From the IMG/VR virus record IMGVR_UViG_3300028840_001713, positions 1 to 41,429 of that record: a DNA stretch of 41,429 nucleotides; one strand, 5' to 3'. Below, piece by piece: positions 16,112 through 34,860 of the stretch (its first letter is position 1; each line of letters starts with the position of its first letter). This DNA comes from a virus. Under the pieces are notes generated by a model. That model ran no database searches. It saw only the letters and a program-made list of their open reading frames with translations, and had not been told where the DNA came from. The translations under genes and the position numbers were made by a program.

Positions 16112-16816
16112 ATGTCAGATATAAAGTGGATAAAGATAACAACAGATATCTTTGATGATGAAAAAATTAAACTAATTGAGAAGCTTCCAGAAGGCGATAC
16201 AATGCTAGTTATATGGTTAAAGCTTTTAGCGTTAGCAGGAAAAAGAAATGATTTAGGTATGGTATATCTTACAAGGGATATTCCATTTACAGCAGATACC
16301 CTTGCAGATATAATGAATAGAGATAGTAAAGTTGTAATGATGGCACTTAACACATTTGTAAGCTTTGACATGATCGAAATTGTTGACGACTTTATAAAAA
16401 TAGTCAATTGGGAGAAACACCAAAATATTGAGGGAATGGAACGCACTAAAGAACTAAGAGCTTTAAGAAATAAAAGGTATTATGAGAAAAAGAAGCTTAT
16501 AGATGATAAGAGTAAAATTAAGACGTCTTATAGACGCCAACAAGATACTTTAGATAAGATTAGATTAGATAAGAATAAATATAGAGATAACATCTTACTT
16601 AAAGAAACAGAATACAATACACTTATAGAAAAATATGGAATAAACAATGTTAATAAAATACTAGATAAACTATCATCCTATAAGCTAAGTAATGGAAAGA
16701 AATATAAATCAGATTATGGAGCAATAAACAACTGGGTTATTAGCTCTCTTGGCATTAAAGAAGAAACGCCCGATCTGATATATAAAGATCAATCCGCGGA
16801 GGTGATAGATATATGA
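16112..16816 (+). CDS. Phage replisome organizer / replication initiation protein
   Basis: The start at ATG 16112 follows GGGGGAGAGGG; earlier in-frame codons give a hydrophobic extension without an RBS. The 234-residue product begins with the typical phage replisome-organizer N-terminal domain (IKWIKITTDIFDDEKI, then LPEGDTMLVIWLKLL, 'VYLTRDIPFTADTLADIM', 'WEKHQN'). It has a basic linker and a C-terminal DnaD/gp-O-like helical part (about 165-225). It would bind the origin and load the DnaB-type helicase encoded downstream. The origin may lie inside this gene, as in related phages, but I see no clear iterons. Confidence 0.8.
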   Translation: MSDIKWIKITTDIFDDEKIKLIEKLPEGDTMLVIWLKLLALAGKRNDLGMVYLTRDIPFTADTLADIMNRDSKVVMMALNTFVSFDMIEIVDDFIKIVNWEKHQNIEGMERTKELRALRNKRYYEKKKLIDDKSKIKTSYRRQQDTLDKIRLDKNKYRDNILLKETEYNTLIEKYGINNVNKILDKLSSYKLSNGKKYKSDYGAINNWVISSLGIKEETPDLIYKDQSAEVIDI

Positions 16817-17451
16817 AAATATTAAACTTATATGCAGGGATAGGCGGCAACCGTAAACTATGGGGAGATGATCACGATATAACAGCAGTCGAATATAACC
16901 AGCAGATTGCAGATATATATAAAGATTTCTTTCCAAATGATAAAGTAATTGTTGCTGACGCCCACGAATATTTATTAAACCATTACAAAGAGTTTGATTT
17001 TATATGGAGTTCTCCGCCGTGTCCTACTCATTCAGATATGAGAAAAGTTTTTGTTAAGGCGGGGCGGTATGATGTTAAATACCCAGATATGGCGCTTTAT
17101 CAGCAAATAATATTATTAAAGCATTATTGTAAATCAAAATGGGTTATAGAAAATGTAGTTCCTTATTATGATTATTTAATTGACCCGAATGTTATTTTAC
17201 ATAGACACCCTTTTTGGTGTAACTTTCCAATAAAAGCAAATCTTTTTAATGATAAAAGAAAACATAGGCAAATAAAATCAAATAGTGTTGTTTATGGAGT
17301 GAGCCTAGAAAAATATAAAATCACAGGAAAGTATGATAAGGTCAAAATATTAAGAAATATGGTAAACCCTGAAGTCGGAAAGTACATTTTAAACGAAGCT
17401 ATGGGGATAATAGAATATGATAAAAATGATTTATTCAAGGGGATATTATGA
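16813..17451 (+). CDS. DNA (cytosine-5) methyltransferase, short
   Basis: This 212-residue protein has C5-MTase motifs in order: motif I NLYAGIGGNRK (5-15) for AdoMet binding, motif IV SSPPCPTHS with catalytic Cys70, motif VI IENV (112-115), and a motif X-like segment NMVNPEVGKYIL near the C-terminus. The variable target-recognition region is small, so the chain is much shorter than the 300-400 residues usual for Dcm-type enzymes. Small phage versions like this exist. It could methylate phage DNA against host restriction. Coupled to both neighbours by ATGA-type overlaps. Confidence 0.88.
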   Translation: MKILNLYAGIGGNRKLWGDDHDITAVEYNQQIADIYKDFFPNDKVIVADAHEYLLNHYKEFDFIWSSPPCPTHSDMRKVFVKAGRYDVKYPDMALYQQIILLKHYCKSKWVIENVVPYYDYLIDPNVILHRHPFWCNFPIKANLFNDKRKHRQIKSNSVVYGVSLEKYKITGKYDKVKILRNMVNPEVGKYILNEAMGIIEYDKNDLFKGIL

Positions 17452-18575: not shown

Positions 18576-19361
18576 ATGAACAAAGTATACTTGATTGATT
18601 GCATGGAATTTATGAAAGATAAGCCAGATAATTATTACGAGCTTGCAATAGTTGACCCACCTTATGGGATTGGGGAGTCGTTTAAAAAACGAGAAAACAA
18701 CCCGTTAAGATGGCACAATCCTAAAAAGAAAATACATAATCCAAAAGAGTGGGATAAAAAAACACCAGATAAAAAATATTTTGCAGAATTATTCAGAATA
18801 AGTAAAAATCAAATAATATGGGGCGGTAACTATTTTGTAGAATATTTAAAAGGTTCTATGGGATGGGTGTATTGGGATAAAAAAAATGGAGATTCTGATT
18901 ATTCAGATGGTGAATTGGCTTTTACATCCTTTAAAAAAGGGCTAAGATCATTTTCTTTTTTATGGCAAGGATTCCAAAAAGGTGAAAAAACTGTGAGAAT
19001 CCACCCAACACAAAAGCCAATAGCCCTTTACAAATGGCTATTAGAAAACTATGCAAAAGAAACAGATTGTAAAAAGTGTGGTGGATTGGGGTATTTAGAA
19101 AATTATGCAGGGTATGAAAACAACATAAAAGATTGTAAAAAATGCAATGGAAGAGGAACCATAAAAGATAAAATATTTGATACCCACGTCGGCAGTGGAT
19201 CAAGTAGAATTGCTTGTTATGAATTAGGTTATGACTTTGAGGGGTGCGAGATTGACAAAGATTATTGGGAAGCACAAGAAAAACGATTCAAAGCAGAAAA
19301 GGCACGAATTGACAATGAGTTTTATTTAGATGATCAAGGATTGTTTGGGGGTATAAAATGA
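18576..19361 (+). CDS. DNA adenine/N4-cytosine methyltransferase with inserted DnaJ-like zinc knuckle
   Basis: This 261-residue beta-class amino-methyltransferase has motif IV DPPYGIG (27-33), then HPTQKP (143-148), then the AdoMet-binding motif I as FDTHVGSGSS (201-210), the permuted order of beta-class enzymes. Between HPTQKP and motif I there is an insert of about 35 residues carrying CKKCGGLG (165-172) and CKKCNGRG (187-194), the CxxCxGxG repeats of DnaJ zinc domains. The insert may help target DNA or proteins. Likely modifies phage DNA; specificity unknown. RBS GGGGG precedes the ATG. Confidence 0.87.
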   Translation: MNKVYLIDCMEFMKDKPDNYYELAIVDPPYGIGESFKKRENNPLRWHNPKKKIHNPKEWDKKTPDKKYFAELFRISKNQIIWGGNYFVEYLKGSMGWVYWDKKNGDSDYSDGELAFTSFKKGLRSFSFLWQGFQKGEKTVRIHPTQKPIALYKWLLENYAKETDCKKCGGLGYLENYAGYENNIKDCKKCNGRGTIKDKIFDTHVGSGSSRIACYELGYDFEGCEIDKDYWEAQEKRFKAEKARIDNEFYLDDQGLFGGIK

Positions 19362-19764: not shown

Positions 19765-19829
19765 TTGGGGAGCACAATTGATTCATCAAACACACTCCCA
19801 ATAGCAAGGGGGCTTTGAGTCCCCCTCTT
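19765..19829 (+). terminator. Leader hairpins and terminator-like stem before the glycan genes
   Basis: TTGGG(G)AG (19765-19772) pairs with CTCCCAA (19795-19801) around a 22-base loop. AGGGGG (19807-19812) pairs with CCCCCT (19821-19826), followed by CTTATTATC. The second stem may terminate upstream transcription or attenuate the cassette; its U tract is poor. AAGGA before ATG 19852 is the RBS. Confidence 0.55.
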
Positions 19830-19851: not shown

Positions 19852-20766
19852 ATGTTTAAGAATAAAGTTGTTTTAATAACAGGTGGCACGGGATCACTTG
19901 GAAAACATTTGACCAATCGTTTACTACAAACAAATCCATCAAAAATTATTATATATTCACGAGATGAACTGAAGCAATCAGAAATGAAAAAGCAATTTCA
20001 AGACGATAGATTAAGATATTTCATAGGTGATATACGCGATAAAAACAGGCTTAATACAGCAATGAAGGGTGTAGACTTCGTAATTCATACAGCAGCATTA
20101 AAACAAGTTGATACACTTGAATACAATCCTTTTGAAGCCGTTAAAACAAATATATTAGGTGCTCAAAATGTTATTGAGTGTTCTATAAACAATAAAGTAA
20201 AAAAAGTAGTGGCACTTAGCACGGATAAAGCTTGCCAACCAATAAATCTATATGGGCATACAAAAGCAGTAAACGATAAACTTTTCCAACATGCTAATGT
20301 ATACGCAGAGAACCATAAAATTATATTAAACGTTGTACGATATGGAAATGTAACAGGTTCGCGTGGTTCTGTTATACCTTTTTTTAAACAGCTTAAAAAA
20401 GAGGGGGCAGAATTTTTACCAGTTACACATCCTGATATGACAAGATTTTGCATTACTTTAGAACAAGCGGTTGAATTAATAATTACGGCTTTTAACGACG
20501 ATGAAGGTGGTAAAATATTTGTGAGTAAATTGCCCAGTTATAGAATACTTGATTTAGTTGAAGCATTTGAAATGGGGGCGGTTATAACCACTATAAGACC
20601 GGGAGAAAAACTTCATGAACAAATGATATCAATATATGATAAGTATGATGAATATAAAGATTATTATATCATTCATAAAAACGGTGAAAAAACAGGTTTA
20701 GATTATAACAGTAAGAACAATAAATTTATGAGTGTTCAAGAACTTAAGGAAATGATAAATGATTGA
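19852..20766 (+). CDS. pseB: UDP-GlcNAc 4,6-dehydratase, PseB/FlaA1 type
   Basis: This 304-residue short-chain dehydrogenase-fold enzyme probably converts UDP-GlcNAc to a 4-keto-6-deoxy sugar, the first step to pseudaminic acid and related sugars. NAD-binding GGTGSLG is at 11-17, the active-site Asp-Lys in STDKACQP at 125-126, and the YxxxK pair Y134/K138 in LYGHTK. It has the short soluble form, without the membrane domain of FlaA1. First gene of the cassette; its 3' end overlaps the synthase gene by 8 bases. The enzyme class is clear; stereochemistry (inverting versus retaining) is inferred. Confidence 0.88.
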   Translation: MFKNKVVLITGGTGSLGKHLTNRLLQTNPSKIIIYSRDELKQSEMKKQFQDDRLRYFIGDIRDKNRLNTAMKGVDFVIHTAALKQVDTLEYNPFEAVKTNILGAQNVIECSINNKVKKVVALSTDKACQPINLYGHTKAVNDKLFQHANVYAENHKIILNVVRYGNVTGSRGSVIPFFKQLKKEGAEFLPVTHPDMTRFCITLEQAVELIITAFNDDEGGKIFVSKLPSYRILDLVEAFEMGAVITTIRPGEKLHEQMISIYDKYDEYKDYYIIHKNGEKTGLDYNSKNNKFMSVQELKEMIND

Positions 20767-21637
20767 ATGGATCGCGGACCCTGCAAGTAATCACAATGGA
20801 TCTCTGGTAATGGCTCAAAGATTAATTCATGCAGCAGCGACCGCAGGGGCAACGGCAATAAAATTTCAGTTCTTTACAGCTAAAACATTAATAGATAGAA
20901 AAGGTTTTGAATATATAGGAAAATTAACACATCAAAGCAAATGGAAAGATGATATATATGAAACGTACCAGAAATATGAAACACCGTTAGAATGGATTCC
21001 AACACTTGCAAGAGATTGCGAAAGGGCAAATATAAAATTTATGGCAACGCCTTACAATAAAGAAGCTGTTGATGCTTTGAATGATTATGTAACAGCCTTT
21101 AAAATTGGAAGCGGTGATATAAACTATTTCCCTTTAATTCAATACGTAGAAAAAACAGGCAAAAAAATGTTATTTGGTTTAGGTGCTGCTACACATAAAG
21201 ATGTTGAAGAACTCTATAGGCATTTAAAAAGCCACGAAAACAAAGTATTCATGCAATGTAACACTAATTACTCTAACGGAAAAAATAATTATAAATATTT
21301 AAATTTAAAATACCTAGATTTATTACCTAGCACATACTCGGAAAAAGGGTTAAGTGATCACACAAAAGATTTGTTTCCGGTACATGTTGCCATTGCATAC
21401 GGCGCTAGATATATTGAAAGACATTTTAAAATAGAAAAAAATAATAGCCCTGATGATCATTTTTCACTAGATCCGCGAGAATGGAAAACAATGATTGTAA
21501 GTGGCAATAAGTGTTTAGAGTCATTAGGCACAGGAAAGAAAATTATTGAACCTAACGAAAAAGAAACACGAATTATCCAGAGAAGAAATCCTTTTAATTG
21601 GTTACGCCCAGATATAACTTATAAGGTTTATGAATGA
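20759..21637 (+). CDS. NeuB-family nonulosonic acid synthase, C-terminally short
   Basis: This 292-residue TIM-barrel enzyme would condense phosphoenolpyruvate with a 6-carbon amino sugar to make a 9-carbon sialic-type acid (PseI/LegI/NeuB; SpsE in Bacillus). Family signatures: IADPASNHNGS at the N-terminus, 'ATAIKFQFF', 'FMATPYN', 'FKIGSGD', 'GLSDHT', and a C-terminal HF..DDHFSLDP metal/PEP region near residues 224-240. The usual C-terminal SAF (antifreeze-like) domain of about 60 residues is absent. Exact product cannot be told from sequence alone. Overlaps both neighbours. Confidence 0.85.
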   Translation: MIEWIADPASNHNGSLVMAQRLIHAAATAGATAIKFQFFTAKTLIDRKGFEYIGKLTHQSKWKDDIYETYQKYETPLEWIPTLARDCERANIKFMATPYNKEAVDALNDYVTAFKIGSGDINYFPLIQYVEKTGKKMLFGLGAATHKDVEELYRHLKSHENKVFMQCNTNYSNGKNNYKYLNLKYLDLLPSTYSEKGLSDHTKDLFPVHVAIAYGARYIERHFKIEKNNSPDDHFSLDPREWKTMIVSGNKCLESLGTGKKIIEPNEKETRIIQRRNPFNWLRPDITYKVYE

Positions 21638-22998
21638 AAATATTATTAATTAATCCAATAACTTATGGATCAATAGATACATTCATAGAAGATTCAAAGA
21701 GAATGAAAATTAACACCGATGAACCGATAGGGTTAATGTACCTAGCCGCGAAATACATAAAAGAAGGGCATGATGCAGAAATATTAGATTTACAAATAGA
21801 AACGCTAAAATATAGAAAGTTTGACAAAGAAATTATTTCAATTATTTTACAAGCTAGATTAAATAAATTTAAACCTGATATGGTAGGAATATCATTTTTA
21901 TATGAACTAAATAAAGATTGTGCATTGTGGGTAGCCCAAAGAGTAAAAGAATATGATAGTAATATAAAAACTATTGCTGGAGGGCTTTATGCTTCTATGA
22001 TGGATGAATTACCATATATTGATGAAATATTAAAAGGTGATCAAACACCAAATTGGATGGAGCTAAAACCTTACAGAGATAATCTGCTAATTGGTGAATA
22101 TGGAATATTAGGGCGCACTGTAATAGATAGGGTATACAAAGAGAATTGCAGAGTAGCAACTATTCAAATAAGTAGGGGATGCCCTTGTAAATGTACTTAT
22201 TGCTCAGGTCATGCAATAACAAAAAGAAAATACACACATAGACCTGTTAATGATATCACAGAAGAAATAAAAGAGCTTAAAGAGAAGTATGATATTGAAG
22301 TATTTATTTTTAATGAAGAAAACAATGGGGTTAATTTAAAGAAAACGAAAGAACTTTACAAGGCTTTAATACCATTAGATATAAAATGGATTTCTAATGC
22401 TGGTTTTTATGTTTCTAATATGGATCAGGAATTTGTGAATTTAGCAATGGATTCAGGTTTATTATATTTTAATTTAGCATTTGAAAGTGGTTCTAAAAGA
22501 TTATTAAGAGAATTAAAGAAAAGTGAAAAAATTGTTGATAATGCAAAACAAATAATGAATTGGATTAGAGAAAAAAATGATTTAATGTATTGTATTGGTT
22601 TTTTTATGTTTGGGTTTGCCAATGAAACTTGGGATGATGTTTATACCAGCATGGAATTTATGAAAGGTTTAGATTTAGATTGGTATCAGGTTAATATGCT
22701 ACAAGTTTTCAAGGGGACGGATTTATATGATGATTATAAAAAAAATGGAAATATAGGTAAAATAAAAGATGCACATTATTTATCTAGTACAGTTGAAAAT
22801 TCAATAATACCAGCAAATGAATTAAATGCATATATCCAACAGAATTTAAACATAGGATTAAATTTTTTAAATAATAGAACATTAAGAAAAGGTAATTTTT
22901 TACAGTGTAGAAGGGATATGCAACATATTTTAAATATTACGAATAATGAACATAGTTATGCAAAAAAAATTATGGAGGTGTTAGGGTGTTCATATTAG
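21634..22998 (+). CDS. B12-binding-type radical SAM enzyme
   Basis: This 454-residue protein has an N-terminal Rossmann-like domain (1-150, ILLINPITYG, 'PIGLMYLAAKYIKEGHDAEILDLQ', 'MVGISFLY', 'TIAGGLYASMMDELPYIDEILKGD') typical of cobalamin-binding radical SAM proteins. The Fe-S motif CPCKCTYC follows (C183, C187, C190). The B12-coordinating DxHxxG is not seen, so cobalamin may be bound without a lower His ligand or not at all. Members tailor sugars, lipids and RNA. In this cassette it could methylate, epimerise or deoxygenate the sugar; the reaction is unknown. Confidence 0.85.
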   Translation: MKILLINPITYGSIDTFIEDSKRMKINTDEPIGLMYLAAKYIKEGHDAEILDLQIETLKYRKFDKEIISIILQARLNKFKPDMVGISFLYELNKDCALWVAQRVKEYDSNIKTIAGGLYASMMDELPYIDEILKGDQTPNWMELKPYRDNLLIGEYGILGRTVIDRVYKENCRVATIQISRGCPCKCTYCSGHAITKRKYTHRPVNDITEEIKELKEKYDIEVFIFNEENNGVNLKKTKELYKALIPLDIKWISNAGFYVSNMDQEFVNLAMDSGLLYFNLAFESGSKRLLRELKKSEKIVDNAKQIMNWIREKNDLMYCIGFFMFGFANETWDDVYTSMEFMKGLDLDWYQVNMLQVFKGTDLYDDYKKNGNIGKIKDAHYLSSTVENSIIPANELNAYIQQNLNIGLNFLNNRTLRKGNFLQCRRDMQHILNITNNEHSYAKKIMEVLGCSY

Positions 22999-23585
22999 GA
23001 ACGACTAATTTCGGACAAAAATATAATGGATCAGAATTAAGTAAAAAAGAATGTTTCAAGATTCTGGAAGAATATAAAAAATTAGGCGGTGTTTATTTAG
23101 ATACTGCTTTTAATTATGGGAATGCTCAGGAGATTATAGGAGAATTTGGAGCGGATCTGTTTAAAATAAATACTAAGTCATGGCACGATGGCGAATTAGA
23201 AAAAAGTTTAGAAATATTAAAAGTAAATAAGATATACAGTTGTATGACAAGAGATTCAACACATTGGATAGGTTATGTTTTAAAGCAACGTGTAAAAAAG
23301 GGTATAATAGAAAAATGGGGATCAAGTATTTATTATCCGCATGAATTAAGAGGGGATGCAAATATAACTTTTATACCGTTTACTAAATACTTTTTAGATT
23401 ATATGCCAGTTATGATGCTTCACGGTGACGTCTGGATAAGATCATATTTTAATTTAGATAGTAATTTAACCAGCGAAGATTTTAAAAAGTATGAAAGAAA
23501 AGATTTGGGGCATGAAGTACATTTTGTTGGCGGTGTAGATAACGTTTTCCAACTAAGGGAAAACATGGAGTTTTTTAATGCTTAA
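22986..23585 (+). CDS. Aldo/keto reductase-like protein, short
   Basis: This 199-residue product starts at GTG 22986 (GGAGG upstream, overlapping the previous gene). N-terminal residues 1-55 carry the aldo/keto reductase signature, LGTTNFGQKY then VYLDTAFNYGNAQEIIG with catalytic Asp39 and Tyr44; K and H equivalents may lie near KINTKSW and MLHGDV. Full AKRs have about 280-330 residues, so part of the barrel is missing, yet the chain is continuous with no frameshift trace. Similar short AKRs occur in bacterial nonulosonate/sps-type clusters to my knowledge. Likely a sugar keto-reductase or a non-catalytic relic. Confidence 0.7.
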   Translation: MFILGTTNFGQKYNGSELSKKECFKILEEYKKLGGVYLDTAFNYGNAQEIIGEFGADLFKINTKSWHDGELEKSLEILKVNKIYSCMTRDSTHWIGYVLKQRVKKGIIEKWGSSIYYPHELRGDANITFIPFTKYFLDYMPVMMLHGDVWIRSYFNLDSNLTSEDFKKYERKDLGHEVHFVGGVDNVFQLRENMEFFNA

Positions 23586-24330
23586 TCTAACAATTATAAT
23601 TTGCACAAAAAATTCAGAAAATAATATAAAAAAAGTTTTAGATAAGTGTAAGAATTATAAAGTAATTTTAGTTGATTGTTCAATAGATGATACTTTAGCA
23701 ATTGCCAGAAAATATAAAAATGTTTATGTTGTAAAAGATAAGGGAAAAGGTTTAGCAGCCGCAAGAAACGCAGGATTAAAACATGTAGTAACAGAGTACG
23801 TTTTATTTTTGGGAAGCGATAATTTAATGACAACAGATTTATACATTTTATCATCACATTTACATAATTATTCATGTGTAAGTTGTATGACAATTCCCAA
23901 TAATGCCTTTAAGAATTATTTAGAAAAGCAAACATATAAACGATGGCAAAAGAAATTTCCCGCAGGAGAACAAAAAATTGTAGGCACTCCGTATATTATG
24001 AGAACGAGCATTTTAAAAGAATATATGTATGATAGTTCTATGTCACATTCAGATGATACAGATTTATTTAAAAGAATGTATGATGATGGGCATAGATTTT
24101 ATAGGTCAAATGTGAAAGTAATAGATTTAACTGTGAATAATTTAAAAGAAATAAAGAGTAGATTTATTCGTTATGGGATAAGTGACAGAGAATTTGCAAA
24201 AAAATATAAAAAAGGCTTTTTAAATTTCTTTTATGCTTTTCGTGCGGAGTGGATAGGATTTGATTTAGTTTATATGCCTTATTATTTATTAGTAGTATTT
24301 TGGAGGTTATATGCCAGAGTCTTTAGTTAA
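23578..24330 (+). CDS. GT2-family glycosyltransferase
   Basis: This 250-residue protein is a GT-A fold enzyme that moves a nucleotide-activated sugar. Motifs: LTIIICTKNSENNI at the N-terminus, VILVDCSIDDT, KGKGLAAARNAGL, and a DxD-like GSDN at 79-82, then a 'SDDTDLFKRMYDDG' acceptor region. The C-terminal 30 residues are hydrophobic (two short segments ending RLYARVFS), suggesting membrane anchoring at the inner leaflet. As the only clear glycosyltransferase in the cassette, it may attach the cassette's sugar to a host glycan or protein. Confidence 0.85.
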   Translation: MLNLTIIICTKNSENNIKKVLDKCKNYKVILVDCSIDDTLAIARKYKNVYVVKDKGKGLAAARNAGLKHVVTEYVLFLGSDNLMTTDLYILSSHLHNYSCVSCMTIPNNAFKNYLEKQTYKRWQKKFPAGEQKIVGTPYIMRTSILKEYMYDSSMSHSDDTDLFKRMYDDGHRFYRSNVKVIDLTVNNLKEIKSRFIRYGISDREFAKKYKKGFLNFFYAFRAEWIGFDLVYMPYYLLVVFWRLYARVFS

Positions 24331-25075
24331 TTGTTTCATACAAGCCCGCACAGGTTCAAAAAGGTTACCAGACAAGGTTTTACTTAATCTCTGCGGAAAA
24401 AGCGCAATACAACGATGTTATGAGCGTGTTATGATGTGCGAGAGAATAAACAATGTAATTGTTATTATTCCAGATAATGAGCCAGAGTTTGCAGAATATT
24501 TATGTGAAGTAGGAATACCATTTTTTAAGGGTGATCCAGATGATTTATTAACAAGATATTGCCAAGCAAGTGAACAATTCCCATGCCAAAATATAGTAAG
24601 GATTACAGCCGATTGCCCGTTAATAGATCCAGCAATAATTGACGATGTGATCAAAACACACTTAGAACATGGTAACGAGTTTACGACTAATGCGTGGTTA
24701 GGATTAGAAACTTATCCCGATGGCATGGATGTATCAGTTATCAGGAAGAAAACACTAGATAAGCTAAATAAAACTATAACCAATGTTATACATAGAGAAC
24801 ATGTTGTAACATACATCATGGAAGATTCAATACCATTTAAAACAGAACACATTGCCAGTGAAATAGATTACAGTGAATATAGATTAACACTAGATCATAT
24901 TGAGGACTATTATGTTTTAAGAATATTAAGCGATATTCTGTTTATAGATTATGTTACATTTTACGGTGAAAACTTAGATAATTTCGGGTTAGATATGATA
25001 ATAGAAAAGCTGGATGAAAACCCATTGTTGAAAAAAATAAACAGTATGCACAAAAGAAACGAGGCTATATTATGA
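24311..25075 (+). CDS. SpsF-like cytidylyltransferase (CMP-sugar synthetase family)
   Basis: This 254-residue nucleotidyltransferase probably activates a nonulosonic-type acid as CMP-sugar. The signature CFIQARTGSKRLPDKVL sits at 8-24 (the R-x(3)-KR-P motif), RITADCPLIDP follows at about 97-107, and HREHVVTYI and LDHIEDYYVLR lie further on, all typical of the SpsF branch related to KdsB/NeuA. Its closest relatives by motif pattern are spore-coat polysaccharide protein F enzymes, often beside NeuB/SpsE and GSA-type aminotransferase genes. Overlaps both neighbours. Confidence 0.87.
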   Translation: MPESLVNCFIQARTGSKRLPDKVLLNLCGKSAIQRCYERVMMCERINNVIVIIPDNEPEFAEYLCEVGIPFFKGDPDDLLTRYCQASEQFPCQNIVRITADCPLIDPAIIDDVIKTHLEHGNEFTTNAWLGLETYPDGMDVSVIRKKTLDKLNKTITNVIHREHVVTYIMEDSIPFKTEHIASEIDYSEYRLTLDHIEDYYVLRILSDILFIDYVTFYGENLDNFGLDMIIEKLDENPLLKKINSMHKRNEAIL

Positions 25076-26208
25076 ATGTATTAGGTTTATATAGTAAGCG
25101 CCCTGAATATTTCTGTAGTGGATTTCCTATATATCAGAAGAAAGCAAAGGGATGTGAAATAACAGACATTTCAAACAAGAAATACATTGATATGTCACAC
25201 ATTGGATTTTCAGCATGTGTATTAGGATACTCAAACCCTATAATTAATGCAATGGCAAAGAAAGCTATAAACGACGGATCTTTTAGCTTACTTAATTCAT
25301 TTAATGATAAAATAAATGCAGATAATTTTATAAAAATTCATAAATGGGCAGATAAAGTGAGATTCACACGATCCGGCGGGGAGGCTTGCCAAGTAGCTGC
25401 TGAAATAGCCAAAGCAAACACTAACAGAAAAGGCATTTTACAATGTGGTTATTCAGGGTGGAAGTTACAAAACGAAAACCATAGAAAATTTACATATAAT
25501 GATATAGAGAGTTTTTATCAAGTTATTAACAAAAATATAGGAATAGTAATTGTCGAGGCTATACGGTATGAAGAACCATCGCCCGAATGGATAGAGCTTC
25601 TAAAAGAGATTAATAAGAAATATATATTGATAATTGATGAAATTACAAGCGGTTTTAGATTTGCCAATGGTGGCATTCATGAAAAATGGGGGCTTCGTCC
25701 TGCAATGGCTGTATTTGGTAAAAGCATGTCAAATGGATTCCCATGTGGTGCTGTATTAATGAGAGGTGATATAGAAGAAGGCAATAAATTTATTTCATCA
25801 ACTTACTGGACTGATAACGTAACGCCTGCGGCTATAACAATGAGCATGATGTTACATAGGATTTATAGACCTCATTATCTGGCAAAGATCGGAAAAGAGA
25901 TTAAAAAAGTTATAGTAGGATGTGCAGATTATTACCAATTGCCGATAAAAATAAATGAAGTAGATCACATTATAAAGTTTACATTTGATCATGAAAAAAC
26001 AAATATACTAGAAACACTATATACGCAATTAATGTTAAAAGAAAAATTTCTTGCAACTAATATAATTTACCCATCATACGCACATAAAATAAAACATCTA
26101 AAAGAATTTGCAAGGGCAATTTATAAAGTGTTTTTTATTATAAAGAAACATATAAACGATCCCGAAAGAATTTTAATAGGGAATGAAAAAAAACATAAAA
26201 TAACTTGA
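25072..26208 (+). CDS. Class III aminotransferase, GSA-aminomutase-like
   Basis: This 378-residue PLP enzyme resembles glutamate-1-semialdehyde aminomutases. Features: MSHIGFSACVLGYSNP at 41-56, RSGGEACQVAAEIAK at 100-114 (phosphate-binding area, usual SGTEA), LIIDEITSGFRF with D189, and the Schiff-base K217 in FGKSMSNGFPCG. It is about 50 residues shorter than HemL and not next to haem genes, so haem synthesis is unlikely. In sps-type clusters such enzymes probably aminate a keto sugar, the step done by DegT-family PseC elsewhere. Last gene of the cassette; a promoter begins in its stop region. Confidence 0.83.
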   Translation: MNVLGLYSKRPEYFCSGFPIYQKKAKGCEITDISNKKYIDMSHIGFSACVLGYSNPIINAMAKKAINDGSFSLLNSFNDKINADNFIKIHKWADKVRFTRSGGEACQVAAEIAKANTNRKGILQCGYSGWKLQNENHRKFTYNDIESFYQVINKNIGIVIVEAIRYEEPSPEWIELLKEINKKYILIIDEITSGFRFANGGIHEKWGLRPAMAVFGKSMSNGFPCGAVLMRGDIEEGNKFISSTYWTDNVTPAAITMSMMLHRIYRPHYLAKIGKEIKKVIVGCADYYQLPIKINEVDHIIKFTFDHEKTNILETLYTQLMLKEKFLATNIIYPSYAHKIKHLKEFARAIYKVFFIIKKHINDPERILIGNEKKHKIT

Positions 26209-26233
26209 TTTTCTATAAAAATAATATTATAAT
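26205..26233 (+). promoter_or_regulatory. Strong promoter downstream of the glycan cassette
   Basis: TTGATT (26205-26210), exactly 17 bp, TATAAT (26228-26233), a consensus -10. Transcription would start about 8 bases before the RBS GGAG of the 55-residue gene at 26248. Confidence 0.8.
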
Positions 26234-26247
26234 ATAATGGAGCGACA

Positions 26248-26415
26248 ATGGATTCTTACAGTACAACAATAGAAAGCAATTTGTGGGATGAGCTGCAAAA
26301 ATTAAGCCTGAAAATAGCCAGTAAAAAGGATAGAGGCTTACACATAGAAATTGATGCAGTAAGCAACAAAGATATAAAAAATTGCAATATAGTTGTAAGA
26401 GAAAAAATTAGATAG
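26248..26415 (+). CDS. Small early protein, 55 residues
   Basis: It runs from ATG 26248 (GGAG 8 bases upstream) to TAG 26413-26415. The product has an N-terminal helix (IESNLWDELQKLSLKIASK) and a beta-rich, basic C-terminus (IKNCNIVVREKIR). It has its own consensus promoter and is followed at once by a terminator, so it is a monocistronic unit between the glycan cassette and terminase. It might control late transcription, but no family is recognised. Confidence 0.68.
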   Translation: MDSYSTTIESNLWDELQKLSLKIASKKDRGLHIEIDAVSNKDIKNCNIVVREKIR

Positions 26416-26416
26416 T

Positions 26417-26462
26417 AAACCCTGAGAGCCTCTTAATAATGCTCAATTACTCGGGGTTTTTT
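26417..26462 (+). terminator. Rho-independent terminator 1 after the 55-residue gene
   Basis: AAACCCTGAG (26417-26426) pairs over 10 bp with CTCGGGGTTT (26450-26459) with one G-U pair, followed by a T run to 26462. The 23-base loop can fold further (GAGC/GCTC). It closes the unit started at 26205. Confidence 0.75.
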
Positions 26463-26512
26463 AAAATGATGACTTTATCCTCCAATAAAGCACATGAATA
26501 ACCTTAAAAATG

Positions 26513-26547
26513 GGCATGTTATATTAAATTATAGCATGCCTTTTTTT
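26513..26547 (+). terminator. Rho-independent terminator 2 before the terminase
   Basis: GGCATGTTATA (26513-26523) pairs with TATAGCATGCC (26530-26540), 11 bp with one G-U, followed by seven Ts (26541-26547). It lies just before the packaging genes, so late transcription must start after it or read through it. Confidence 0.8.
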
Positions 26548-26578
26548 ATTGTAAACGGTAAAAAAACGGGATAATACA

Positions 26579-26860
26579 ATGAGTGGGAAGTGCGATCCTC
26601 CTAAGCATAGTCAATTCTCTAGTACCAATCAGCCCCCGAACGAAAGTAAGAGGGTTCCAAAGTTAAAAACAAGGCTTAAACACCTATTAGCGAATAACTA
26701 TGATGAAGTGGCTAGTGCATTGATGAAAAATGCTAAAAAGGGAGATATAAAAACCATAGAGTTTATGCGTGATTGGCTTTATGGTAAACCTAAAGAGCAT
26801 TATGATACTAACAACAAAATAGATATAAAAGTCGAGTATGTGCACAATAAAAATAAATGA
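26579..26860 (+). CDS. Terminase small subunit candidate
   Basis: This 93-residue protein, rich in Lys and polar residues at the N-terminus, has a helical centre (KLKTRLKHLLANNYDEVASALMKNAKK and 'IKTIEFMRDWLYGKPKE'). The segments resemble the DNA-binding and oligomerisation parts of small terminase or DUF5681-type proteins. It sits directly before the large subunit, whose start lies in its 3' end. Only a weak GGG lies before the ATG. Function inferred mainly from location. Confidence 0.6.
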   Translation: MSGKCDPPKHSQFSSTNQPPNESKRVPKLKTRLKHLLANNYDEVASALMKNAKKGDIKTIEFMRDWLYGKPKEHYDTNNKIDIKVEYVHNKNK

Positions 26861-28049
26861 TGCTTTCAAGTCATTAAAAGAAAGCACAAAGAGATTAAAT
26901 ATAGTTTATGGCGGTGCTGGTAGTGGTAAGAGTTACTACTTAGCACAAATGATTATATTGAAGCTCATTGAAACACAAAGAAACTTTTTAGTCATTAGGA
27001 AAGTAGGCAATACATTGAGAGATAGTGTATGGAGCTTATTTTTATCGGTTATAAGTGATAATAATTTATCACAAATATTTCAAGTCAATAAGTCAGAGTT
27101 TACTATTACCAATAAGATAGAAGGTAATCAAATTATATGCAAAGGGTTAGATGATCCGGAAAAGATTAAATCTATTACAGTTAAAAAAGGGCAGCTAACT
27201 GATATTTGGATAGAAGAAGCAACAGAATTAAACGAAGACGATTTAATGCAGCTTAATTTAAGGTTAAGGGGAGAGAACGAATACCAAAAACAGATTTGGT
27301 TAAGTTTCAACCCTATAAGTAATCTACATTGGATTAAGAAAAAATACTTTGATAATCCAGATAATAACACCTTAATACTTAAAACAACTTATAAAGATAA
27401 TGCTTTTTTAGATGAGGACTACAAGAGAGAGTTAGAGAGTTTAAAATATAAAGATAAGGTTTACTATGATATTTACGTACTAGGAAATTGGGGTGTCATA
27501 GGAAATCTTGTTTTTAACAACTGGGAAGTAAAAGACTTAGATGATATAAGAGAGCAGTTTAATTCTTATTATAACGGGCTGGATTTTGGGTTTACAAATG
27601 ATCCTACAGCCATTGTAAAACTCGCAAGGAAAGATTGGAATATATATATATTAGAAGAACATTATGAAAAGGGTTTAGATAATAACCAGATCGCAAAGGT
27701 TTTTAAAGATAAGTTTGAGGGGTATGTTTATTGCGATAGCGCAGAGCCTAAAAGTATTAGGGAGCTTAAACAGTACAATATAGCAGCCAAAGCCACGATA
27801 AAAGGCAAGGATTCTGTTAAGCACGGCATACAGTGGATAAGGCAGCATAAAATAATAATAGATAAACGGTGTACTAATTTCATTAATGAGATAAGTACAT
27901 ATAAATATAGAGAGGATAAAGACGGCAACGTTTTAAATGAACCGTTGGACATGAATAATCATTTAATGGATGCCATGAGGTACGCATTAGAGAACTTAAT
28001 GCGGATGTATAGAAAAACCAGTTACAGTGCTGGGCAATTGGGGCTTTAA
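26838..28049 (+). CDS. terL: Terminase large subunit
   Basis: This 403-residue packaging motor ATPase and nuclease has Walker A GGAGSGKS (25-32), Walker B TDIWIEEATEL with Glu126/Glu127, and a coupling motif with LSFNP. The RNase H-like nuclease acids appear in GLDFGFTNDPTAIVK, VYCDSAEP and HLMDAMRYAL. The sequence type resembles PBSX/SPP1-like terminases, which generally package by headful, consistent with a circularly permuted genome (inference). Overlaps the small-subunit gene; the portal starts in its stop codon (TAATG). Confidence 0.93.
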   Translation: MCTIKINDAFKSLKESTKRLNIVYGGAGSGKSYYLAQMIILKLIETQRNFLVIRKVGNTLRDSVWSLFLSVISDNNLSQIFQVNKSEFTITNKIEGNQIICKGLDDPEKIKSITVKKGQLTDIWIEEATELNEDDLMQLNLRLRGENEYQKQIWLSFNPISNLHWIKKKYFDNPDNNTLILKTTYKDNAFLDEDYKRELESLKYKDKVYYDIYVLGNWGVIGNLVFNNWEVKDLDDIREQFNSYYNGLDFGFTNDPTAIVKLARKDWNIYILEEHYEKGLDNNQIAKVFKDKFEGYVYCDSAEPKSIRELKQYNIAAKATIKGKDSVKHGIQWIRQHKIIIDKRCTNFINEISTYKYREDKDGNVLNEPLDMNNHLMDAMRYALENLMRMYRKTSYSAGQLGL

Positions 28050-29503
28050 TGGAAGGTGATGTAAAAATAACAACTAAGATTTATGAATACCCACGTGTAG
28101 AAGATTTTACAAGTTTGAACGAAAAAGAACTTGAAACACTCATTGAAGATAACCGTGAGTTTTGGAATAAATACGCAGAGAATGAGCAATACTACATAGG
28201 TGCTAATGTTGCTATTGCGAGTAAAAGGGAAGTTGACAAAGATAATCCCGATTCACGGGTTGCCGTGCCTTATGCGAGAACTATGACTCAAATTGTTAAG
28301 GGTTATATGTATAAAGCAGGGTTAATAACTTATGATAGTGATAACGAGCAATATATGCAAGTCCTACAAGAGATATTTGACCGGAATGATGAAACGCTTA
28401 AAACAAGTGAGCTTGGAGAGAGTCAAAGCAAATACGGTTTAGGAGTTGAACTACTCTATATAGATGATAAAGCCGAATTAAGATTTACTAACGTTAACCC
28501 CAAAGAATGTATATTCCTTTTCAATATGGAAATCGAGCCTAAATTGTCAGGAGCTTTAAGATACTATGTTATTGATGAAGATAAAGACAAATTAAACTCT
28601 AAAACATATAAATTAGAAGTATACTACTTAGATCGTATAGAGATATACACACTAAAAGAAGATTCATTTAATAAGTTTTCTGTTGTAAGCAAGGATGATC
28701 AATACCCGAATGTATTTAAGGAAATTCCTTTTGTTATCTATAAGAACAATCAGGAATACCACGCGGACTATGAGCCTGTTAAGCCACTTGTAGATGCTTA
28801 CGATATATTAGCCAGTGACAGCACAAATGAGTTAAACCGTTTTGCAAGTGCTTATCTTATTCTTAAAGACTATGTATTTTCAAACCCAGATGATGATAAC
28901 ATGAAAACAAGGGAATTAGAAAAGCTTAAATCAAGACGTGTACTAGAGTTTTTAGACGGTCAAGGCGGCGCTGAGTTCTTAACCAAAGATATACCAAGTG
29001 AGTTCTTTGAAGCTGTTAAAGGTACATTAAGAGAGGATATTGAATATCATTCGCATATACCAGACTTTAGAAGCAAGAACTTTTCTAATGCCTCAGGTGT
29101 TAGTATGATGTGGGCTTTGTTTGACTTTGAGAATTTTTGTAGTGATAAGGAAACGTTATTCTCTAAAGGGCTACAACATAGAATAGACCTAATAAATATA
29201 TATCTAGGCATAAGAAATATACAAGCTGAAAAGGTAAATATTAGGTTCAAACGAAACACGCCTGTAAACTTAACCGAACTAATTGATAATGCAGTTAAAT
29301 TAAAAAACGGCGGGATATTATCAGATGAAGATATATTAAAAACACTACCAGAAGATTTAGTCGATAATGTTGACGACGCTTTAGAGAGGTTAAAGGCTCA
29401 GAGAGATGAAAACATGCAGATGTTTGATATAGAAGGGGGATCTAATGGAGATCAAGGATTTAATTCAAGAGATCAAGAGGCACAGCCAAATAACGGAAAC
29501 TAA
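28049..29503 (+). CDS. Portal protein, SPP1 gp6-like
   Basis: This 484-residue protein forms the dodecameric DNA entry channel. Features typical of the SPP1-type portal family: an early 'NREFWNKYAENEQYYIG' helix, 'DNPDSRVAVPYARTMTQ' near 65-85, 'RRVLEFLDGQGGAEFLTKD' and 'DFRSKNFSNASGVSMMWALF' in the stem/clip region, and a charged helical C-terminus. Follows the large terminase and precedes the minor head protein, the canonical packaging order. Confidence 0.88.
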   Translation: MEGDVKITTKIYEYPRVEDFTSLNEKELETLIEDNREFWNKYAENEQYYIGANVAIASKREVDKDNPDSRVAVPYARTMTQIVKGYMYKAGLITYDSDNEQYMQVLQEIFDRNDETLKTSELGESQSKYGLGVELLYIDDKAELRFTNVNPKECIFLFNMEIEPKLSGALRYYVIDEDKDKLNSKTYKLEVYYLDRIEIYTLKEDSFNKFSVVSKDDQYPNVFKEIPFVIYKNNQEYHADYEPVKPLVDAYDILASDSTNELNRFASAYLILKDYVFSNPDDDNMKTRELEKLKSRRVLEFLDGQGGAEFLTKDIPSEFFEAVKGTLREDIEYHSHIPDFRSKNFSNASGVSMMWALFDFENFCSDKETLFSKGLQHRIDLINIYLGIRNIQAEKVNIRFKRNTPVNLTELIDNAVKLKNGGILSDEDILKTLPEDLVDNVDDALERLKAQRDENMQMFDIEGGSNGDQGFNSRDQEAQPNNGN

Positions 29504-29612
29504 TATCATTGATATAAAAAAAATCAATGGCAAGTTGGTTTTTGAGGTGAGCAATGGGGCAGATAGCAGAAAACCAAAAAATAGCATTCAATCAAACAGA
29601 GGGGATGCTTAA
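29445..29612 (+). CDS. Possible small protein overlapping portal and minor head genes
   Basis: From ATG 29445 (GGGGGA just upstream) to TAA 29610-29612, 55 residues in a different frame from both neighbours. The product starts MEIKDLIQEIKRHSQ and has a short beta stretch (KINGKLVFEVSNG). It bridges the 50-base gap between portal stop and next start, overlapping each by about 58 bases. Small genes at this spot occur in other phages, so it is plausible, but coding evidence is limited to the RBS and the fit. Confidence 0.4.
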   Translation: MEIKDLIQEIKRHSQITETNIIDIKKINGKLVFEVSNGADSRKPKNSIQSNRGDA

Positions 29613-31275
29613 TATATATGAGAAGCGGTTAATATCTGCTTATCGTGGATCTTTGAAACAAATAAGAAATGATATCATGAAGCTAAATGAAAAGGTTACA
29701 TGGTCATTCAGTGAGCTAAGGAAATATAACAGGCTGGAGAAACTACAGAAGCAAGTTGCTAATGAGCTTGTGAAGTTAGGTAGATTAACAGGTGTCGAGT
29801 TGGCAAAGGTTAATACTAACATTGTGGAGAATACTTACAATAGATCATGGTTTGGGTATGAAAAGGAAATTAAAACAAGTTTGGCATTTGGTAAAATAAA
29901 TCCTGATCTTGTTAAAGGGATAGTAACAGAGCCTTATCCTAACGTTAAACTAAAAGATTTAATCAAAAATGTTACGCAACAGCAAGTTAATAGAATAGTG
30001 TTTGATATAGGGCAAAGTCTAGCATTGGGAGAAGGTGCTGCAAAAGCGGCACGTAGATTGCGAAATAGTTTAAATATAGGCTTTAATCAGTCAATGCGTA
30101 TAGCACGTACGGAAGGATTAAGGGCAAGTAGTAAGGCACAATTAGTCAGCACAGAAAGAAGTCAAGATTTAGGGATAGAAATAACAAAACAATGGCATAC
30201 AAATTTAGATGGGCGTGAAAGATCGAGTCACAGAAATATAAACGAACAACTAGCGGATAAAAAGGGGTTATTCCATATAGGCACAGCAACAGCAGAAGCC
30301 CCGAGATTATTCGGGATAGCAAAAGAGGATATAAATTGCAGATGTTATTATACAGAAGAAATAGATGATTTACCTGAAAACATAGAAAAACGAGTAACAC
30401 CTAAAAGCATAGATAAAAGCCGACAAATGACATTTGATGACTTTCAAGAGGAGAAAGGGATTAAAAAGAATAAGGAAGTGCCAAAGGCTAAAGAGCCAAA
30501 AGAGCCAAGGTTTAAGCCTGCAAGAACAGTAGATGAAGCTGTAAAATTTGCTAAAAATAATAATATAGCAAAACAAATAGATTACAATGGTATTAGTTTA
30601 GAACATATAAATGCAATTAATAAAACACTTATAAGGCTAAAAGAAAAATATAAACAACCTTTTCCATATATACAACTAAATACAAAAATGGGCGAAGGAG
30701 CCACGGCGGGGGCAAATGCGGTGCAACTGAAATTAAATAAAAGAGCTTTTAGTAAAAATTCTATACGTGAGATGTACCATGATACACATACAGGGTTTAA
30801 AGAAAATACAAAAAATAGTTTAAGATTAATAAATGAAAATGATAAAAGAAAATTAGTTAGTGAGCAAGAAGCAAAAAGGTATAAAGAAACATTAACAGAA
30901 ACTATAAAATTTAAAAGATCTAATACAGCTTTTAAAGGAGAAGAAATAAACACTATCATTACGCATGAATTTGGGCATACTTTAGCAGATATTAAACTAG
31001 GACTCATAACAAAAAACCCTGTAAACAAGTTGTTAAGAAGCAAGGGAGGTTCTAATTATATTAAAAAATCAGATGAATTAATAGAAAGATTAGATAGTCT
31101 TTTTGATAAATATGTAACAAAAAAAACAGATGGATATATTTATGATGTATCAGTATATGCCACAGAAAATAAAGATGAATTTTTAGCAGAGAATTTTGTA
31201 CTTTGGGATAAAAACCCAAGTTTAGTAAAAAAAGATATATCAAAATTTTTCAAGGATTTAGTGGAGTTATTATGA
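29554..31275 (+). CDS. Minor head protein (Mu F / SPP1 gp7-like) fused to a zincin-like metallopeptidase domain
   Basis: This 573-residue protein's N-terminal part (about 1-265) matches phage head morphogenesis proteins: a helical region, then 'RIARTEGLRASSKAQ', 'KQWHTNLDGRERSSHRNINEQ' and the Cys-containing DINCRCYYTEE. A Lys/Pro linker (about 290-325) leads to an unrelated C-terminal domain (330-573) with the zinc site ITHEFGHTLAD (His471, Glu472, His475). A downstream ENKDEFLAENF with Glu542/Glu546 could give the third ligand. This resembles polymorphic-toxin or lethal-factor-like zincins appended to minor head proteins. It may be delivered into the host with DNA. Confidence 0.87.
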   Translation: MGQIAENQKIAFNQTEGMLNIYEKRLISAYRGSLKQIRNDIMKLNEKVTWSFSELRKYNRLEKLQKQVANELVKLGRLTGVELAKVNTNIVENTYNRSWFGYEKEIKTSLAFGKINPDLVKGIVTEPYPNVKLKDLIKNVTQQQVNRIVFDIGQSLALGEGAAKAARRLRNSLNIGFNQSMRIARTEGLRASSKAQLVSTERSQDLGIEITKQWHTNLDGRERSSHRNINEQLADKKGLFHIGTATAEAPRLFGIAKEDINCRCYYTEEIDDLPENIEKRVTPKSIDKSRQMTFDDFQEEKGIKKNKEVPKAKEPKEPRFKPARTVDEAVKFAKNNNIAKQIDYNGISLEHINAINKTLIRLKEKYKQPFPYIQLNTKMGEGATAGANAVQLKLNKRAFSKNSIREMYHDTHTGFKENTKNSLRLINENDKRKLVSEQEAKRYKETLTETIKFKRSNTAFKGEEINTIITHEFGHTLADIKLGLITKNPVNKLLRSKGGSNYIKKSDELIERLDSLFDKYVTKKTDGYIYDVSVYATENKDEFLAENFVLWDKNPSLVKKDISKFFKDLVELL

Positions 31276-31448
31276 CACCTAATCAATGTTATAAATGTAA
31301 AAATTATATGGGTATGAATACTTGTTTAGCATTTAAAAAAATACCTAAAAAAATAATAACAGGAGAGTTTAATCATAGTAACCCTTATCCAAACGCTGAA
31401 AAACCAACTGATAACGGAATAAGGTTTGAGAAAATAAAGGGGAAATAA
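31272..31448 (+). CDS. Small Cys-containing protein downstream of minor head gene
   Basis: 58 residues, ATG 31272 (in ATGA overlap with the previous stop) to TAA 31446-31448. The N-terminus CYKCKNYMGMNTCLAF contains three cysteines in CxxC..C spacing, suggesting a zinc knuckle, then a basic helix and a Pro-containing tail. Such a short 'CxxC' protein sits between head morphogenesis and scaffold genes in several phages to my knowledge. Role unknown. Confidence 0.65.
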   Translation: MTPNQCYKCKNYMGMNTCLAFKKIPKKIITGEFNHSNPYPNAEKPTDNGIRFEKIKGK

Positions 31449-31672
31449 TGAACGTATTATTTAAACGAGCTGTAACACAGCTTTTACAAGTGATAAATCA
31501 TGCAAGTGAAGATCAAATAATAGAGCTTTATACAGATGTTAAAGCTTATTATGACAATATAAAAAAGGAGTCAGAGGATGGCAGATCAACAGCAGCAGGT
31601 CAACGATCAACAGGATCAGGGGCAAGCAATACAAGAAAACGAAGCACAGGAAACACAAGAGCAAGAAAATAA
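31448..31672 (+). CDS. Small hypothetical protein overlapping scaffold gene
   Basis: This 74-residue product starts in the TAATG overlap with the previous stop (AAGGGGAAA as RBS). Residues 1-44 are a helical domain (RAVTQLLQVINHASEDQIIELYTDVKAYY). The last 30 residues are read in another frame over the Gln-rich start of the scaffold gene and are Ser/Gly/Arg-rich, so only the N-terminal part looks constrained. A compact helical domain before the scaffold fits an accessory head assembly protein. Confidence 0.55.
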   Translation: MNVLFKRAVTQLLQVINHASEDQIIELYTDVKAYYDNIKKESEDGRSTAAGQRSTGSGASNTRKRSTGNTRARK

Positions 31673-32249
31673 ACAACCCATTTCACAAGAAATGATGGAT
31701 TTTATTTCATTAAAAGTGAATGAGGTAAAAGAGGCAAAAGATAACGAGATAAGAGGGCTTAATAGAAAGTTAAGCGAAGTTCAAAACTTAAACAAAGAAT
31801 TACAGAAAAAAAGCTTAAGTGATAAAGAATTATTTGAGCTAGAAAAAAAAGAGTTCATGGAAGAAAAACTTTCATGGCAAAAAAGAAATATTATAAATGA
31901 TATGTTTAGTGATAAACCTCAAGAGGTTAGAGATGTATTGCTAAACTCACTAAACGGAGAAACGGAAGAAACATTAAGAACAAATGCAGAGAATATACAA
32001 AATATTCTAAATGCAGAAAAGGAACTAACAAAAAATAAAACAGTGGATGAAGTTCTAGCGGGGGCGACGCATAAACCAAAGGCGGGGTTAAATAGCGGCG
32101 AGCCTGCAAAGGATTATAATAAAATGACAAAAGAAGAACTAACGACCGAGTATAAAATGGTACAAGGTCAACCTGAAAGTCCTGAAAGAACCGCAACATT
32201 AGAAAAGATTGCGAAAATACAACTGTATAATCAAACAGGGCGAAAATAA
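31578..32249 (+). CDS. Capsid scaffolding protein
   Basis: This 223-residue, highly charged helical protein has an N-terminal Gln/Glu-rich disordered part (about 1-33), a long coiled coil (about 45-105), and a C-terminal Lys/Glu-rich helical segment. Composition and location directly upstream of the capsid gene match phage scaffolds of the DUF4355/GP20 type, which guide procapsid assembly and exit or are cleaved. GGAG precedes ATG 31578. No protease gene lies beside it. Confidence 0.82.
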   Translation: MADQQQQVNDQQDQGQAIQENEAQETQEQENKQPISQEMMDFISLKVNEVKEAKDNEIRGLNRKLSEVQNLNKELQKKSLSDKELFELEKKEFMEEKLSWQKRNIINDMFSDKPQEVRDVLLNSLNGETEETLRTNAENIQNILNAEKELTKNKTVDEVLAGATHKPKAGLNSGEPAKDYNKMTKEELTTEYKMVQGQPESPERTATLEKIAKIQLYNQTGRK

Positions 32250-32264
32250 CAAAAGGAGTTATAA

Positions 32265-33131: not shown

Positions 33132-33143
33132 GGAGGCTAAACA

Positions 33144-33527
33144 ATGGCAGCATTAAGTACAACAGCCCAAAAATTGGGTATTAACGGACTAGAAAACGAA
33201 ACCTCAGGATCTTTAGTGGGTTTCTCAACAGCGACTTCTTCTTTAACGATCACTTGTGGCTCTTTAGAAGATGTAGTAATATGGTATCACAATCCTAGTG
33301 GCGCAACAGATGTAACAGCGACAATATCAGCTTCAACCGCGGAAGGTTATGCTTCTATCGGTAGAGGCGACAAGATTCTGTCAACAGCTATCGGATCAAG
33401 TGACTACGGGTTTATCGCTAACCTAGAATCAAACTGGTTTCAATCAACATCAAACGCTTTTACTGTTACTTTTAGTACAGCAATTGCAGCAGGGTTTATT
33501 GAATTATCTAGTACAAGACAAAACTAA
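33144..33527 (+). CDS. Head decoration-like protein
   Basis: This 127-residue, beta-rich protein with few charges and many Ser/Thr/Ala/Gly starts after GGAGG, directly after the capsid gene. Size, composition and location match capsid decoration or head-stabilising proteins. It is followed by a strong hairpin, so it shares the transcript with the capsid gene and may be made at high level. No specific family motif is recognised. Confidence 0.65.
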   Translation: MAALSTTAQKLGINGLENETSGSLVGFSTATSSLTITCGSLEDVVIWYHNPSGATDVTATISASTAEGYASIGRGDKILSTAIGSSDYGFIANLESNWFQSTSNAFTVTFSTAIAAGFIELSSTRQN

Positions 33528-33532
33528 AAAAC

Positions 33533-33552
33533 GGGGGGCTTAGCCTCCCTTT
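33533..33552 (+). terminator. Terminator after capsid genes
   Basis: GGGGGGC (33533-33539) pairs with GCCTCCC (33543-33549), loop TTA, followed by TTTATATTATC. It would end or reduce the high-level capsid transcript before the next virion genes. The layout closely resembles the hairpin before the glycan cassette. Confidence 0.7.
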
Positions 33553-33576
33553 ATATTATCTTTAAAAGGATTAGTA

Positions 33577-34629: not shown

Positions 34630-34641
34630 GGAGATAACAAA

Positions 34642-34851: not shown

Positions 34852-34860
34852 GGAATAATT

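Follow-up and report, generated by a model that had tools for sequence, protein, structure and literature searches.

A phage-borne operon of nonulosonic-acid-type sugar genes and its relatives in bacteria and other viral contigs

Phages that are known to alter the glycans of their hosts do so with one or two enzymes. The virus record IMGVR_UViG_3300028840_001713, which we analyzed whole as a stretch of 41,429 nucleotides (the window), carries an operon of seven genes at positions 19852-26208 that devotes about 15% of a 41-kb genome to the putative synthesis and activation of a nonulosonic acid (NulO)-type sugar. This raises the question of whether the operon truly belongs to a phage and, if so, whether its enzymes could make an activated sugar and where that sugar would be placed. 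We consider it probable that the operon is phage cargo derived from a PseB-SDR-NeuB-AKR-SpsF-GSA type of bacterial surface-sugar cluster (where SDR is an RmlD-like short-chain dehydrogenase/reductase, AKR an aldo/keto reductase, and GSA a GSA-type aminotransferase), making a cytidine monophosphate (CMP)-activated NulO-type sugar for the host surface or the virion. If functional, this operon and the similar cassettes beside structural genes in other uncultured phages would offer a route for the horizontal spread of sialic-acid-like pathways and a mechanism of phage-phage competition or virion coating, as well as minimal enzymes for biochemical study, namely, a NeuB without the SAF domain and an aminotransferase without one of its loops.

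Linkage of the operon to the phage genome

The seven genes lie on the plus strand with all frames open, each overlapping the next by 4-20 nt. They are flanked by an HNH gene (19358) on the left and by terminase genes (26579 and 26838) on the right. Family profile matches recovered every enzyme named in an initial annotation of this DNA, at the same coordinates and strand, and its estimate of the operon's share of the genome agrees with ours; it had counted eight genes where we find seven. Elsewhere, the window encodes a large terminase subunit (TerL) of the PBSX family, a portal, a major head protein, tape-measure-like and beta-helix tail proteins, a DnaB-like helicase, and a DnaD-like loader. 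Bases 1-144 are identical to bases 41286-41429, and this direct repeat of 144 bp, in a record that carries no completeness flag, leads us to regard the window as a complete genome of about 41.3 kb, either circular or with terminal redundancy. This conclusion is supported by the 26.5-kb contig 3300018080_000527, the nearest relative phage contig, which continues across the window ends; its alignment, with about 68-80% of nucleotides identical, extends from position 27.4 kb of the window over the end and start to 13.7 kb. The stretch that it covers excludes the operon, ending before the operon site. No integrase or repressor, as markers of a temperate phage, was found among the open reading frames (ORFs) scanned, which took in part of those in the window. 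TerL shares 52.7% identity with that of the Thermoanaerobacterium phage THSA-485A, a similarity that suggests, without proving, a Bacillota host.

Bacterial polysaccharide loci typically hold genes of these types, as would be expected if host DNA had been misjoined to a phage contig. However, an independent 10.1-kb IMG/VR contig (L007, 3300017963_003012) is 99.99% identical to the window over positions 24955-35056, crossing from the SpsF and GSA genes through the aminotransferase-terminase junction into the terminase, portal, and head genes. The composition of the operon also shows no break from that of the phage, with z values of -1.3 to +0.9 for tetranucleotide deviation, inside the range of the phage, and a GC content at third codon positions (GC3) in the range of the core genes, and the same kinds of genes occur beside terminase or portal genes in other viral contigs. 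Given the terminal repeat, the L007 overlap, and the matching composition, we reject host contamination, and we regard a misjoined contig as highly improbable. The operon belongs to this phage, probably as a cargo (accessory) module, with its right junction confirmed by the second contig and its left junction, at about 19.8 kb, seen in a single contig. The more distant phages THSA-485A and L008 have TerS-TerL without a NulO cluster.

Enzymes of the operon and their bacterial cluster type

Homology to NeuB, SpsF, and PseB confirmed that this is a nonulosonate-type gene set. The profile matches given below identify the family of each protein rather than its substrate. The PseB-like UDP-N-acetylglucosamine (UDP-GlcNAc) 4,6-dehydratase (19852-20766; 304 aa) matches Polysacc_synt_2 (1.3e-94) and TIGR03589 (2.2e-121; 404.8 bits, slightly below the 407.75 cut-off), and it keeps, at residues 124-138, the previously described T-(x)9-Y-(x)3-K triad (PMC7439481). 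The NeuB-family phosphoenolpyruvate (PEP)-condensing synthase (20759-21637; 292 aa) matches PF03102 (9.5e-55) and retains the invariant subfamily residues K35, H201, H222, and D232. Its AlphaFold2 model forms a complete eight-stranded (beta/alpha)8 barrel (predicted local distance difference test score, pLDDT, 84) that Foldseek finds to be most like PseI and NeuB structures (PseI 8h2c, 9.5e-21), including the SAF-less 6ncs. The SpsF-type cytidylyltransferase (24311-25075; 254 aa) matches CTP_transf_3 (PF02348; 1.4e-21) and a solved cytidylyltransferase (PDB 6oew; 8e-31), and the PseF model gives it 20.7 of 205.7 bits. The class-III pyridoxal phosphate (PLP) aminotransferase (25072-26208; 378 aa), placed in the GSA type by alignment and tree, matches Aminotran_3 (PF00202; 1.5e-25). 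Its PLP lysine (Lys217) is conserved, as are the SGGEA and DE motifs, and one loop of about 30 residues is deleted.

The remaining three genes encode putative tailoring and transfer enzymes. The B12-binding radical S-adenosylmethionine (radical-SAM) enzyme (21634-22998; 454 aa) combines PF02310 (B12-binding; 1.2e-10) and PF04055 (Radical_SAM; 2.5e-14) with a CxxxCxxC motif at residue 183, and it fits no curated subfamily (the best NCBIfam model scores 131 against a 575-bit cut-off); by analogy with B12-radical-SAM methyltransferases in general, it could add a C-methyl group. The AKR (22986-23585; 199 aa) matches Aldo_ket_red (PF00248; 1.1e-6) and keeps D39, Y44, and K64. Its AlphaFold2 model, which Foldseek matches to AKRs, is confident in strands 1-5 and the last beta/alpha unit only. 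The family 2 glycosyltransferase (GT2; 23578-24330; 250 aa; PF00535, 6.1e-18) has a hydrophobic C-terminal segment (residues 226-244, hydropathy 1.3).

We compared the operon with bacterial loci picked by NeuB similarity alone in one scan, which gave 80 loci among the matches listed and is not a census. PseB lies near NeuB in 67 of these 80 loci and SpsF in 53, while GSA is found in 9 and AKR in 8. Locus L154 (Pelagibacteraceae) reads PseB-SDR-NeuB-GT2-AKR followed by a fused SpsF-GSA, all on one strand and in nearly the order of the phage operon; L142 (Neptuniibacter caesariensis) holds the same gene set as L154, and L098 reads PseB-SDR-NeuB-GNAT-AKR-SpsF-DegT. As in this cluster type, the phage operon has PseB, a NeuB of the same subfamily, AKR, SpsF, and GSA together on one strand. 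It shares with L154 and L142 five of six enzyme types and the NeuB subfamily (39-44% identity), but it lacks the SDR and carries the extra B12/radical-SAM gene, its SpsF and GSA are separate ORFs, and its AKR, NeuB, and GSA are shortened. By sequence comparison, then, the phage operon is related, in rearranged form, to a gene set that recurs in bacteria, minus the SDR and plus the radical-SAM enzyme.

This comparison bears on which steps should be called missing. The initial annotation had noted the absence of an acetyltransferase and a UDP-sugar hydrolase, and family profiles indeed detected neither an N-acetyltransferase (GNAT/PseH) nor a UDP-sugar hydrolase (PseG/NeuC) in the operon. However, bacterial NeuB/AKR/SpsF/GSA clusters also lack both, so these enzymes are missing only relative to the textbook pseudaminic and legionaminic acid pathways. 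When we read the translations around L142 and L154, without a profile scan, no PseC-, PseG-, or PseH-type gene was seen beside either cluster. A truncated pseudaminic acid pathway was rejected, as the bacterial relatives are without the same steps. This bacterial cluster type is the better reference, and judged by sequence against it, what the operon lacks is the RmlD-like reductase.

SpsF and GSA occupy one ORF in six loci (L142, L154, L144, L124, L111, and L005), and this fusion ties the aminotransferase to CMP activation. The idea that GSA replaces PseC is unsupported, since SpsF-GSA co-occurs elsewhere with DegT (L024, L043, L051, and L093) or SDR (L142 and L154). For the same reason, we think that GSA is a tailoring enzyme and that the C4 step is borne by the host.

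Among characterized systems, the Bacillus subtilis sps pathway for legionaminic acid (SpsM/C/D/G/E/F), in which SpsE and SpsF have been experimentally placed in the route to CMP-legionaminate, shares with the phage a 4,6-dehydratase, a NeuB-type synthase (SpsE), and an SpsF-type CMP-transferase (PMC7439481). The phage differs in having no SpsC-, SpsD-, or SpsG-like genes and in its additional class-III aminotransferase, AKR, and radical-SAM enzyme. We found no biochemical description of the exact bacterial PseB-SDR-NeuB-AKR-SpsF/GSA set; the nearest published mention is the nab cluster of Vibrionaceae and Moritella, in which an SpsF-like domain, a proposed NeuA replacement, is likewise linked to an aldo-keto reductase (as an SpsF-AKR fusion), but which has PseC and PseH homologues and sits in bacterial genomes (PMC7371886).

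Proposed pathway, destination, and competing explanations

We infer the following scheme, in each of its reactions, products, host-supplied steps, and destinations. PseB would convert UDP-GlcNAc to a 4-keto-6-deoxy nucleotide sugar, and C4 would be completed by a host reductase or aminotransferase, given that the phage has neither SDR nor DegT, or, less likely, by the phage aminotransferase. NeuB would then condense the freed sugar with PEP to give a nonulosonic-acid-like acid, which the AKR, the aminotransferase, and the B12/radical-SAM enzyme may tailor and SpsF would activate with CMP. Finally, the GT2 may take part in transferring this product, or a sugar related to it, onto an envelope glycan of the host, which we slightly favor, or to virion proteins.

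Several observations weigh against this scheme. The C-terminus of NeuB falls where the SAF domain would begin, and that domain is absent; in the NeuB of Neisseria meningitidis, Arg314 sits in the SAF domain, and R314A and R314K NeuB structures are among the Foldseek matches to our model. NeuB also scores well below the equivalog cut-offs (176 versus 400 bits for the NeuB model and 174 versus 340 for the PseI model) and has an end branch of 2.41 in the NeuB tree, versus a median of 0.31. The AKR has lost about 90 residues relative to full-length relatives (283-317 aa), and its catalytic His, present in 8 of 8 aligned relatives from similar clusters, is Arg, which may leave one tailoring step without activity. 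Family profiles detected no RmlD-like SDR in the operon, including next to NeuB, and no DegT-type C4 aminotransferase (PseC/LegC) among the seven proteins, the class-III enzyme being present instead. Nor did we find a known CMP-NulO transferase family in the operon, and we know of no GT2 that uses a CMP-NulO donor. That the seven genes suffice on their own to make and attach a nine-carbon sugar is not supported, given a SAF-less and fast-evolving NeuB, an AKR without its catalytic His, and the lack of a known transferase family.

These same losses raise the possibility that the operon is partly decayed or repurposed cargo that yields no complete activated sugar, with single enzymes modifying host intermediates. 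The altered and truncated AKR, the missing SDR and DegT, and the long NeuB branch would all fit such a history, yet the seven frames remain open and tightly overlapping, GC3 matches that of the phage genes, the motifs of NeuB, PseB, SpsF, and GSA are kept, and comparably shortened NeuB and GSA proteins occur in other phages. We regard decay as unlikely. Somewhat less unlikely, in our judgment, is an alternative that accepts the same chemistry and differs on destination, with capsid, tail, or spike proteins being glycosylated late in infection. Related cassettes in or beside structural genes (L185; L018, L019, and L023; L084 and L085) and the place of the operon itself just before TerS/TerL are consistent with this, as a position within structural gene blocks fits late expression. 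On the other hand, neither a target protein nor a dedicated protein glycosyltransferase was identified, and the phage NulO genes known so far act on the host capsule (PMC12053666, PMC6586298).

It is also conceivable, though we think it very improbable, that the operon serves DNA hypermodification and not the making of a surface sugar. Genes for DNA methyltransferase and HNH proteins do adjoin it, but bacterial clusters of the same gene set are sugar loci, and NeuB, SpsF, and PseB chemistry has, to our knowledge, no role in base modification. Assembly of a CMP-activated NulO-type sugar remains the explanation that we favor.

Related cassettes in other viral contigs and flanking features

We surveyed viral loci with one alignment scan of IMG/VR, taking the best 80 of 210 NeuB relatives plus two loci found via the aminotransferase. 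PseB, NeuB, and a CMP-transferase occur together in 28 of these 82 loci. Phage hallmarks were seen in 19 of these loci with a limited seed set, and a single profile picked up TerL in 7 of 18 viral records; because such hallmarks appear in only part of the loci, some share of them may be host fragments. Nevertheless, the window operon is not a unique case, as diverse NulO cassettes lie on many IMG/VR contigs, some of them plainly phage. In L185 (506-6103), the cassette sits directly between TerL and portal (TerS-TerL-PseB-NeuA-type-GSA-portal); L018, L019, and L023 have PseB-SDR-NeuB-GNAT among tail genes; L084 and L085 have amidotransferase, HisF-like, DegT, SpsF, and NeuB genes near TerL, with PseB in L084 as well; and L021 pairs a phage DNA polymerase with NeuB, SpsF, and GSA.

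These cassettes and others (L043, L045, L080, and L184) resemble the window operon in having PseB, NeuB and/or a CMP-transferase, sometimes GSA, and often shortened enzymes, but their subsets vary (DegT, NeuC, amidotransferase plus HisF, or GNAT), and the AKR-GT2-radical-SAM set of the window was seen in none of them. When the radical-SAM, NeuB, and PseB proteins were each scanned as single sequences against IMG/VR, close relatives were absent or the matches only weak, and GenBank phage records held a single NeuB relative, which belongs to an entry with the label Moritella viscosa. In the open-licence literature, we found no description of phage-borne NulO synthesis, although prophage NulO-modifying genes are already known. 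The prophage genes epaA-epaB, which act on the host capsule and concern 8-epipseudaminic acid (PMC12053666), and phage O-acetyltransferases that act on capsular NulOs (PMC6586298) are likewise phage genes acting on nonulosonic acids, but they use one or two enzymes to modify NulO that the host has made, whereas the window operon encodes a dehydratase, a synthase, and CMP activation.

Shortening of NeuB is a tendency among these phages rather than a hallmark, because bacteria have short forms too. Among the matches listed for both sets, NeuB is short in 20 of 79 viral loci and in 0 of 80 bacterial subfamily loci. In Bacillota genomes, 3-4 of about 40 true NeuBs are short, three of them in non-phage contexts, making the difference from viral loci modest (p 0.026), and a Leptospira NeuB of 290 aa is in the PDB (6ncs). 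The proposal that a SAF-less NeuB marks phages is weakened by these Bacillota and Leptospira proteins. In the tree, the NeuB of the window clusters with those of phages L018, L019, and L023, which are SAF-less as well (Shimodaira-Hasegawa-like approximate likelihood ratio test, SH-aLRT, 91); its long end branch makes this placement uncertain. Similarly, four unfused phage aminotransferases (window, L021, L184, and L185) have 4-9 residues where the bacterial fusions have 33; a single origin of these loop-less forms is neither shown nor rejected by the approximately unbiased test (p-AU 0.118). More speculatively, and in our view doubtful, unrelated phage lineages may carry their own compact NulO systems, with recurrently shortened NeuB and aminotransferase, that coat virions with sugar or remodel host surfaces by means of a novel product, the window operon being a C-methylated (radical-SAM) variant.

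Other viral contigs from the survey added further arrangements. L083 and L055 (IMGVR_UViG_3300030397_000318 and 3300022221_000008), both with TerL, carry a SAF-less NeuB of 266-269 aa and genes for a NeuA-type CMP-transferase, an N-acetyl-sugar amidotransferase, a HisF-like protein, DegT, and NeuC, a near-complete set that suggests acetamidino-type nonulosonates. On L184, a NeuB-like ORF of 226 aa (1378-2058), shorter than the window NeuB, neighbors PseB, CMP-transferase, GSA, and NeuC-like genes. L033-L037 and L039 combine a head protein related to the window major head protein with a full-length NeuB, most with a NeuA-type gene a few kilobases downstream, and are a second lineage of NulO-carrying phages.

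Around the operon itself, a promoter candidate at 19728-19756 matches TTGACT-17-TATATT at 10 of 12 positions, but the region holds 52 such sites versus 48 expected by chance, and a promoter of the operon's own is not established. A weak hairpin (19807-19826; fold z -1.3) lies upstream of the operon. Downstream, a small ORF of 55 aa, seen as a translation (26248-26415), separates the operon from two terminator-like hairpins, each followed by a T run, at 26417-26461 (fold z -2.6) and, more strongly, at 26512-26541 (fold z -6.8); the small ORF and all three hairpins are on the plus strand. Two DNA methyltransferase-like genes (16813-17451 and 18576-19361) lie just upstream of the operon, and a tail-region protein with a right-handed beta-helix domain, encoded at 4772-6127, is possibly a glycan-binding or glycan-cleaving spike.

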